DNA of 43,979 nt from Clostridia bacterium (lineage in GTDB: Bacteria; Bacillota; Clostridia; Oscillospirales; Acutalibacteraceae): positions 1 through 43,979 of the forward strand of contig JAFSYP010000043.1 of the NCBI GenBank assembly GCA_017449935.1, written 5' to 3'. Numbering within the stretch: the stretch's first letter is position 1; each line of letters starts with the position of its first letter. Below the pieces are notes generated by a model. The model did no database searches, had not been told where the DNA came from, and was given only the letters and a program-made list of their open reading frames with translations. Below are positions 1,815 through 6,856 of this stretch, one piece after another. The translations under genes were made by a program, and so were the position numbers.

Positions 1815-1888
1815 AAAAAAAGAAAAAGGCCAAGGCAGAAGTTGCTTACAGTCTTTAAAAAGACTGCTTACAACGACTACCTTGGCCT
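1815..1888 (-). terminator. Intrinsic terminator after the 103-aa gene
   Basis: Perfect outer stem AGGCCAAGG (1827-1835) with CCTTGGCCT (1880-1888), enclosing a second hairpin (CAGTCTTT/AAAGACTG, 1849-1866). Read on the minus strand it is followed by a T-rich tract (1826-1815). It lies downstream of the gene ending at 1991. Confidence 0.75.
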
Positions 1889-1990
1889 CTTCACGTTATA
1901 CGGACAGCACGTTCTGGTTGTCGATTATTCAATTGTGTGTCTTTGCGCTGTCACACACAAAAACGGTGCGCAAGTCCGCATAATTAATTG

Positions 1991-2302
1991 TTACGGTGAC
2001 ATTGCCTCTAAAATGTACTCCGGAATGTGACAGTCCGCGTCGAAAACAATCGCTATAATCTCATCCAGATATACAAACCCATAGGCTTGATTTTCTTTCA
2101 TGTAGGCAATGGCGGGTTTCCCGTTGATCCGAATCAAATAGCCCAAGATCAAAGGTCTTCCGTGACGGGTTTTAAGTGCTTTGGGTTTAGCGTTTGATCG
2201 AACAGGGCGCAGATTAACCTTGTGCACACGCACCTGCTTAGCATCGTGGTTTTGGTTTGTGTTGTCCGAAGCCGTGCTCGGAACAGAAGATTTCGTATCC
2301 AT
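1991..2302 (-). CDS. Hypothetical 103-aa protein under a structured leader RNA
   Basis: Not recognised. The N-terminal third is low-complexity and polar (Ser/Thr/Asn). The middle is basic (about residues 35-58). The C-terminal half looks like a small alpha/beta domain (LILGYLIRINGKPAIAYM, then YGFVYLDEIIAIVFDADCH). The start at 2302 follows GAGGAG by 11 nt; a GTG/ATG start a few codons upstream is possible. The gene is isolated, has a terminator behind it and a long non-coding leader in front of it (2432-2778), so its expression appears to be controlled by premature termination. No function can be assigned. Confidence 0.55.
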   Translation of the reverse strand: MDTKSSVPSTASDNTNQNHDAKQVRVHKVNLRPVRSNAKPKALKTRHGRPLILGYLIRINGKPAIAYMKENQAYGFVYLDEIIAIVFDADCHIPEYILEAMSP

Positions 2303-2341
2303 AGGGCATAGTTCTCCTCTGACTTTGAACATTGATAATGA

Positions 2342-2382
2342 TGTATGCTTTCATACAGATATTTGTCGTTCAATAGAACGAT
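2342..2382 (-). promoter_or_regulatory. Two short palindromes between leader terminator and 103-aa gene
   Basis: TGTATGctttCATACA (2342-2357) and TCGTTCaataGAACGA (2367-2382) are two perfect 6-bp inverted repeats, 9 bp apart, in the 5' UTR. They could be RNA hairpins or protein-binding sites. Only the symmetry is seen. Confidence 0.4.
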
Positions 2383-2431
2383 TTTCTTTTCACTCCCACC
2401 TAATAATTTTCAACAATTGGATTTTAAAAAC

Positions 2432-2778
2432 AAAAAAACGATCCAGCTCTTATACGCTGAATCGCCTTTTGGGAAAAGCCTGCATGAACCTATTCCCGGA
2501 AGGGTAGGCTGCATCCATTTCAGCGTATAAATTTCAACACGAACATTTAATTGCTTAAACAGACGGCCGTTTCCGGGTGGAAGGCTCCGCTCTACACCAT
2601 CCCTGATATAGCAGAGGACCGCAATCCTTCATAATCTTTGTTGCTCTAACGAGGCACTAAGCATGGACTTCCTGTAAAGCCACCAAAATCCAAAGTCACC
2701 GCTTCACCTCAAGTATCCGGTGCATGATAACCACGTCCTTTATCTGATTCGAAAAGCTCTTGTGGCGAACTTCTCACA
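2432..2778 (-). ncRNA. Structured leader RNA with alternative terminator/antiterminator
   Basis: A consensus promoter (2812-2785) starts a ~345-nt transcript with no credible ORF. Near its 3' end, GATTCAGC (2463-2456) pairs with GCTGGATC (2447-2440, one G-U pair) and is followed by seven T (2438-2432): an intrinsic terminator. The same GCTGAA bases also belong to a perfect 12-bp helix, TTATACGCTGAA (2530-2519) with its complement at 2461-2450. That helix encloses an inner hairpin (CCTACCC-TTCC-GGG..TAGG, 2509-2490). The two helices cannot coexist, which is the layout of a riboswitch or attenuator. I do not recognise the aptamer; it could instead be a stand-alone structured RNA. Confidence 0.6.
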
Positions 2779-2784
2779 AATAAA

Positions 2785-2812
2785 ATTATACACGAAATGA
2801 TGCAGATGTCAA
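2785..2812 (-). promoter_or_regulatory. Consensus sigma-A promoter of the structured leader RNA
   Basis: TTGACA (2812-2807), 16-bp spacer, TATAAT (2790-2785) on the minus strand; both hexamers match consensus. Transcription would start near 2778 and run into the leader and the 103-aa gene. Confidence 0.85.
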
Positions 2813-2900
2813 TACTGTTTCCAGAAAAAACCATGCTTTTCGTGTTTATTCATGTGTAGAAAACGCAAGCAAAAAATTGTGCAGCTTGTACAAAAATAAA

Positions 2901-2951
2901 AAAACATCTTTTCTTTCGTCAGTTTTGGTCTCCAATCTGCTTTATACAGTG
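2901..2951 (+). promoter_or_regulatory. Promoter/operator module, copy B (drives HTH/recombinase arm)
   Basis: Holds ATCTGCTTTATACAGTG (2935-2951), the exact inverted copy of 878-894, with CGTCAGTTTTGGTCTCCA upstream, related to copy A. It lies 34 bp before the start of the HTH gene, so it is placed as a promoter of the recombinase arm. A -10-like TATACA is present without a clear -35. Confidence 0.5.
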
Positions 2952-2984
2952 TACCGACAAACACAACAGATTGGAGGCATCCGA

Positions 2985-3377
2985 ATGACGTCCGTACAAC
3001 AGCAGCAAATCGAAATGCTCCGTGCGTCCGGGCAGAGCTATGCGCAGATCGCACGATCCCTCGGCATTCCTGTCAGCACGATCAAGTCCTTTTACTCCCG
3101 CCGCTCCCCTGCTGCAATCGCCGTGCAAAAGCACGTCTGCAAACAATGCGGGGTACCGATCGAACAAAAAAGCAAAACTAACCCGCGATTGTTCTGCTGT
3201 GACAAATGCCGCGCTTTATGGCGGTATCATAACATCGTTAAGTCGTGCCGCGCCCAATATCCGATGGTCTGTCCTGCTTGCGGCAGTTCCTTTCTGGCCG
3301 TTACCAAAACACAGAAATACTGCTGCCACACCTGCTATATCAATGACAGGTTCAGAAAGGACGACTCGCATGGATGA
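2985..3377 (+). CDS. HTH protein with two zinc-ribbon motifs
   Basis: A 130-aa protein. The N-terminus is a Trp-less resolvase/sigma-type HTH (QSYAQIARSLGIPVSTIKSF, ~17-36). Two Cys clusters follow: CxxC at 52/55 with CC-xx-C at 71-75, and CxxC at 96/99 with CC-xx-C at 113-117, both consistent with zinc ribbons. The start at 2985 follows GGAGG by 7 nt; the frame is open upstream to 2877 without a ribosome binding site. The stop overlaps the next start by 8 bp. Such proteins commonly precede paired serine recombinases in Firmicutes elements. A role as regulator or accessory factor for excision is inferred. Confidence 0.7.
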   Translation: MTSVQQQQIEMLRASGQSYAQIARSLGIPVSTIKSFYSRRSPAAIAVQKHVCKQCGVPIEQKSKTNPRLFCCDKCRALWRYHNIVKSCRAQYPMVCPACGSSFLAVTKTQKYCCHTCYINDRFRKDDSHG

Positions 3378-6514: not shown

Positions 6515-6604
6515 ATGCGACCACCCCCGTTTTGAAATGCGACCACCCCAAAATCGGATGCGACCACCTGAAATTTTGGACGCACAAACATTTGTTTGGA
6601 CGCA
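6515..6604. repeat. Array of short direct repeats with ~21-bp phasing
   Basis: ATGCGACCACC begins at 6515, 6537 and 6558 (steps of 22 and 21 bp). TTGGACGCA follows at 6576 and 6596 (step 20 bp). All repeats therefore fall on about the same face of the helix, two turns apart. The array sits between the recombinase terminator and the tRNA terminator, in the stretch where the right end of the element should lie. It could be protein-binding repeats at the element end; no ORF is credible here. Confidence 0.55.
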
Positions 6605-6779: not shown

Positions 6780-6856
6780 TGGCCCGCCCGGAGGGATTTG
6801 AACCCCCGATCTTCAGAATCGGAATCTGCTGCGTTATCCAACTGCGCCACGAGCGG
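6780..6856 (-). tRNA. tRNA-Arg (anticodon CCG)
   Basis: A full 77-nt cloverleaf can be drawn with encoded CCA. The acceptor is CCGCTCG with CGGGCGG (one U-G pair) and discriminator G. The D arm is GCGC..TTGGATAA..CGC. The anticodon loop TTCCGAT gives anticodon CCG, reading CGG arginine codons. The T arm is GGGGG-TTCAAAT-CCCTC. One oddity is a G27-A43 mismatch at the outer pair of the anticodon stem. A consensus-like promoter and a perfect terminator flank it. I saw no duplicated tRNA 3' end nearby, so it is not shown to be an attachment site. Confidence 0.93.

Follow-up and report, generated by a model that had tools for sequence, protein, structure and literature searches.

The window analysed here is a 43,979-nucleotide stretch of DNA from a Clostridia bacterium of the family Acutalibacteraceae, and the subject of this study is a structured non-coding RNA or leader (2432-2782) that lies on its minus strand. 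Five promoter-like sites were found between positions 700 and 3700, a single one of which matches both hexamers at 12/12 bases: TTGACA-16-TATAAT at 2812-2785 on the minus strand, the perfect-consensus promoter already recognised in the preliminary description, with a spacer of 16 bases, not 17. The 5′ end of the RNA would lie near 2778. Some 345 nt had been described as devoid of any ORF, in agreement with a codon-usage score, with the element's genes as reference, that is negative in all six frames of 2432-2782. The one further copy known, in the genome G571 of the same genus, differs from it by gaps of 1, 2, 4 and 5 bases, and the sequence is therefore ill-suited to coding. A 25-codon ORF lying midway along the window copy (frame read by eye) is not kept in G571 and was discarded. 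The RNA ends with an intrinsic terminator (2432-2463, minus strand; equivalent at L037:9719-9692 in G571), an 8-bp hairpin made of the arm GATTCAGC (2463-2456), the loop GTATAAGA and the arm GCTGGATC (2447-2440), followed by a G and TTTTTTT (2438-2432). The terminator scan counts 15 pairs in this hairpin, as it includes those of the A-rich 5′ flank with the T-tract.

The next gene on the same strand starts about 130 bases past the T-tract, and a scan found no promoter-like site between the terminator and this gene. It encodes P0001, a protein of 103 aa (1991-2302, minus strand), and is, as had been claimed, the only gene seen downstream of the RNA: it stands alone before a large hairpin with arms at 1824-1856 and 1859-1891 (minus strand) and a T-rich tail, read from the sequence, which closes the promoter-RNA-P0001 unit. 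P0001 is probably, though not certainly, a gene. Its codon score of 0.098 in its own frame, the other frames being negative, compares with a mean of 0.210 and a minimum of 0.065 for the element's genes (35 windows) and with a maximum of 0.111 for wrong frames (175 windows). It has no family match in Pfam, NCBIfam, PHROGs or PADLOC. The homologue search gave one 28-residue Hymenobacter match and none that is clear, and a whole-genome search gave matches in 4/295 genomes including its own, the three others being weak. Of the loci L013, L015, L016 and L017, the two inspected, L015 and L017, coincide with other long frames, and no match was found in viral contigs, phages or plasmids. The AlphaFold model of P0001 is unusable (mean pLDDT 41.9).

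Divergent from the RNA lie the gene of a helix-turn-helix protein, P0003, which matches sigma-70 region 4, and two large serine recombinases, which bear out the earlier assignment of the locus to a mobile element. The only Rfam matches within the window are one tRNA and a DUF2800 RNA (RF02960, 96.3 bits) at 1557-1718 on the minus strand, upstream of P0002 (942-1514), a helix-turn-helix protein whose matches to sigma factors are all sub-threshold. P0002-like genes occur in 8/245 order genomes including its own, and the DUF2800 RNA precedes such a gene in two of the seven fetched stretches that carry one. The RNA studied here has no nhmmer match in these seven stretches (best blastn E 0.034), and neither P0002 nor P0003 gave relatives in viral contigs. 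A small gene beside the DUF2800 RNA in L029 shows no detectable relatedness to P0001. A 36-nt inverted repeat (86%) at 878-913 and 2916-2951 contains CTGTATAAAGCAGAT and lies, facing each gene in the same way, about 190 bases upstream of an SNF2-helicase gene and about 35 bases upstream of P0003, and may serve the element as a promoter or operator of its own. After the second recombinase and near a tRNA-Arg (6780-6856), three direct copies of ATGCGACCACC(C/T) with a spacing of 21-22 bases (6515-6573) possibly mark the element's recombination end.

Exclusive pairings at the terminator

The arm and loop of the terminator have a second partner upstream. The sequence TTATACGCTGAA at 2530-2519 forms 12 perfect pairs with TTCAGCGTATAA at 2461-2450 (both on the minus strand), and because this antiterminator-like helix takes up the 5′ arm and the loop of the terminator, the two structures are mutually exclusive. 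Both pairings put forward in the preliminary description, the 12-bp helix and the 8-bp hairpin followed by seven T, were thus recovered, and a 12-bp rival helix overlapping the terminator is more than chance would give: when the upstream part was shuffled 5000 times with its dinucleotides preserved, the longest perfect complement of the terminator arm and loop reached 12 bases in none, 11 in one and 10 in six. A similar picture emerges from 57 terminator-like hairpins, each taken with 350 bases upstream (85 records, 418,422 bases; 8 loci skipped as repeats, with some overlap left), for which the longest upstream complement is 12 in the window copy, 10 in the G571 copy, 11 in one other hairpin and at most 8 in the remaining 54.

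A diverged copy in a sister species

The preliminary description had called the RNA unrecognised, on the grounds that none of the known riboswitch signatures fits it, and had proposed to check it with Infernal and Rfam. Rfam 15 at gathering scores gives no match to the RNA in the window or to the G571 copy, and relaxing the threshold to E 10 on 2200-3000 brings up four snoRNA or sRNA models, all below cut-off and all outside 2432-2782. No published description of the RNA was found, the literature not being searchable by sequence. The collection of homologues, likewise proposed, was carried out and yielded the G571 copy besides the window's own. The RNA is matched in 2/11 genus genomes, its own and G571, with the same 2/11 obtained by a profile of both copies. 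A BLAST search of the family gave 11/300 genomes including its own, the other ten showing matches of 19-37 bases that were judged to be chance. The profile of the two copies matched 4/398 family genomes including its own; the three other matches (E 3e-4, 0.0016 and 0.004, with a further match of 0.014 at one locus) fall within ORFs or an apparent tRNA gene cluster and were discarded. The same profile matched 1/186 class genomes, again its own, and an exact pattern of the core was found among 295 order genomes in its own genome only. The family, class and order samples overlap, and the two large profile searches (398 family and 186 class genomes) used stricter filters, through which weak relatives can be lost. 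A further 42-base profile match in G571 (E 0.015) lies within a long reading frame and was likewise discarded. Five DNA patterns searched against viral contigs returned 0, 1, 0, 0 and 7 stretches, respectively. The single stretch from the second pattern has no profile match and lies within a reading frame; of the seven from the fifth, L085, L088 and L090 share the same weak profile match and the other four have none, and L085, the one of these three weak matches that was inspected, is in a reading frame. Phages and plasmids gave no match to the RNA, or matches of only 27-49 bases, which were put down to chance.

The homologue G571:C27:28184-28530 is identical to the window copy at 259/340 ungapped columns (76%). 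The match spans window positions 2823-2428: it begins a little before the -35 hexamer, runs to where the T-tract ends and leaves the flanks on either side unmatched. Together with the absence of an Rfam family, this conservation from promoter to T-tract agrees with the description of the locus as an unrecognised structured RNA, as do the minimum free energies, with z-scores of -2.5 for the window copy and -2.9 for G571 (1/100 shuffles as good in each). Kept in G571 are the TTGACA hexamer, 10 bp of the rival helix (the 5′ arm in full and the first 10 bases of the 3′ arm) and the terminator stem; the -10 element, as read from the alignment, is either TATAAT at a spacer of 19 or TATATA at a spacer of 17. 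The copies differ between the arms of the rival helix and in the terminator loop; one strongly conserved block, columns 181-210 of the alignment, is identical at 29/30 positions. Both exclusive helices are intact in G571 despite differences at 81/340 ungapped columns, the rival helix comprising 12 perfect bp in the window and 10 in G571. Within the stretch that it encloses, G571 carries a second terminator-like hairpin with a T-tract (L037:9746-9729), of which the terminator scan found no equivalent in the window copy.

In both copies, the sequence places an intrinsic terminator in a 5′ leader, between a promoter and a gene on the same strand. The gene in G571 starts about 50 bases past the T-tract, has a ribosome-binding site and codes for a protein of 1009 aa, with AAA and Lon protease domains, that is unrelated to P0001. 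Since the same RNA precedes P0001 in one genome and a Lon-like protease in the other, the RNA rather than its gene is the conserved unit, and the leader looks portable as judged from the two loci. This accessory Lon-type protease (L037:6604-9630) has phrog_15585, of unassigned function, as its best PHROG. Lon-type proteins 28-33% identical to it occur in nine other genomes of the genus and in G571 itself, with none in G575, and its first 560 residues have only partial matches, in 196/230 family genomes as well as in plasmids and phages. The contig that carries the G571 copy stops about 200 bases before the RNA on its upstream side, too soon to show whether that locus is mobile.

Near the 5′ end, both copies share a layout of AAAGGA, ten bases, ATG and nine codons up to a TGA. 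In the window, this corresponds to a Shine-Dalgarno-like site at 2736-2741 and a possible upstream ORF at 2696-2725 (minus strand), which reads MHRILEVKR-stop, with start, frame and stop kept in G571, where it reads MNQMLEVKR-stop (frame and translation by eye). Column shuffles produced a conserved Shine-Dalgarno site and ORF in 8/3000 cases with a 6-base site and in 67/3000 with a 5-base site, by criteria set after the ORF had been seen. Because the test was designed after the sighting and all three codon changes between the copies alter the amino acid, a translated leader ORF is to be regarded as a lead only.

Competing readings of the locus

The reading that best explains these observations, and to which we give about even credence, is that the RNA forms the 5′ leader of a transcription unit controlled by conditional termination, i.e., a transcription attenuator. 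It accounts for the wiring, for the conservation of that wiring in a diverged copy and for the same-strand gene that comes next in both loci with no promoter-like site found in between. The rival helix, longer than expected by chance, and the integrity of both helices in G571 speak for it, as does the two-sequence consensus fold energy of -64.9, which none of 200 column shuffles equals (-51.3, sd 5.4). In the window copy, moreover, the fold predicted for a transcript that ends just before the 3′ arm of the terminator is the rival helix (P 0.94); the conserved Shine-Dalgarno site and short ORF also fit. Against it, there are only two copies, and chance could account for both genes lying on the strand of the RNA (1 in 4). 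The index of structure conservation is unremarkable, 27/200 shuffles being as high. RNAalifold gives 82 pairs, 5 of them with two-sided changes, and one or two such changes are seen in several candidate helices, which were selected among all possible helices with no null for comparison. The long terminator and rival helices themselves are invariant across the two sequences and hence offer no covariation signal. In both full RNAs, a fold with the rival helix imposed is about 9 kcal/mol less favourable than the terminator fold, and in G571 the probability of that helix is 0.00 for each of the six transcript ends tested; pseudoknots, proteins and ribosomes do not enter into these energies. The promoter scan of G571 is a weak test, since it also misses the RNA's own promoter. 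The upstream ORF lies more than 200 bases from the terminator, no path from it to the antiterminator is identifiable from two sequences, and P0001, having no clear homologue, permits no comparison of its regulation. The switch announced in the preliminary description is supported by its wiring, by the integrity of both helices in both copies and by the same-strand gene, with no promoter-like site found before that gene; two sequences with invariant helices and a thermodynamically favoured terminator leave switching as such a proposal.

Transcription of the RNA, read-through, the direction of the switch and its signal are what we infer in the following model of the attenuator. RNA polymerase would start near 2778 and produce about 345 bases. 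If 2530-2519 is free, it would pair with 2461-2450 and block the terminator, so that the downstream gene would be made; if it is not free, the hairpin 2463-2440 would form and transcription would stop at 2432. Sensing would fall to the upper two thirds of the RNA, which are conserved, and a likely form of it would be a ribosome on the 9-codon upstream ORF, which could prevent the candidate helices 72-78/127-133 or 76-82/103-109 (numbered by alignment columns) from forming and thereby shift the fold.

The main and serious rival, which we consider a real possibility short of an even chance, is a free-standing small RNA of about 345 nt that has a promoter and a terminator to itself and acts in trans or together with a protein. 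In that case, the mature RNA would have the 12-bp helix as its closing stem, and the terminator fold would serve for release only. The self-contained conservation from promoter to T-tract between unrelated flanks, the terminator fold favoured in both copies, the strongly conserved blocks and the unrelated downstream genes are all consistent with such an RNA. A stable RNA whose own terminator must destroy its closing stem would nevertheless be oddly wired, and the G571 protease gene begins very close to the T-tract with no promoter-like site found before it.

It is improbable that a terminator-bearing piece of a mobile element simply landed upstream of unrelated genes as a passive brake, without sensing. 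The two large serine recombinases in the element of the window copy would suit this origin, and terminator clusters of this sort before unrelated genes are reported by Naville and Gautheret 2010 (PMC2965389). Each of the two genomes has, however, a single full copy, the repeat listing shows no repeat pair at the ends of the block, and the promoter and about 300 bases upstream of the terminator, needless for a passive terminator, are conserved as well. A riboswitch in the strict sense, whose conserved part would be a ligand aptamer, is very improbable: the typical wiring, the strongly conserved core and the unrelated genes under one leader would suit it, but no Rfam riboswitch fits, its known spread is tiny (2/11 genus genomes), the downstream genes hint at no metabolite and the conserved short ORF suggests a ribosome instead. 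From the preliminary description's "attenuator or riboswitch", the attenuator part is thus retained, a ribosome-sensed attenuator being, in view of the short upstream ORF conserved in both sequences, at least as plausible as a riboswitch.

Should the attenuator leader be right, it would be a hitherto undescribed leader RNA whose conserved core is large, and which is rare and yet placed before unrelated genes, one of them a protease, and a concrete test case for the spread of regulatory RNAs as units. The second copy makes the proposal testable. We are more tentative, and on the doubtful side, about the wider idea of a new portable class of large structured RNA switches with their own promoter, upstream ORF, sensor core and terminator, found in one genus so far, which would put unrelated genes under one signal.

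Comparison with known regulatory RNAs

The nearest regulatory RNA in place is the DUF2800 RNA (RF02960), a cis-regulatory RNA in the same mobile element and on the same strand; it is a separate RNA, about 0.7 kb from the RNA at 2432-2782, which no Rfam model matches. The mobile attenuators of Naville and Gautheret 2010 (PMC2965389) offer a precedent for one attenuator before unrelated genes: they share with the present RNA a single terminator-bearing leader that is found ahead of unrelated genes, one of which lies in a mobile element. Unlike them, the present RNA has its own conserved promoter, a long structured RNA and one full copy per genome, with no sign of an insertion-sequence end. For the mechanism of attenuation by exclusive helices, the precedent is the vmlR leader of Bacillus subtilis (PMC9226507), which is likewise a 5′ leader with a short upstream ORF, a Shine-Dalgarno site and exclusive antiterminator and terminator helices. 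The vmlR leader comprises 219 nt before the start codon, compared with about 345 nt up to the end of the T-tract. Its ORF has 3 codons and lies inside a defined anti-antiterminator, whereas the ORF described here has 9 codons, with no recognised anti-antiterminator and sensing that is only putative. Finally, vmlR precedes an antibiotic-resistance ABCF gene, whereas the RNA described here stands before genes of other kinds.
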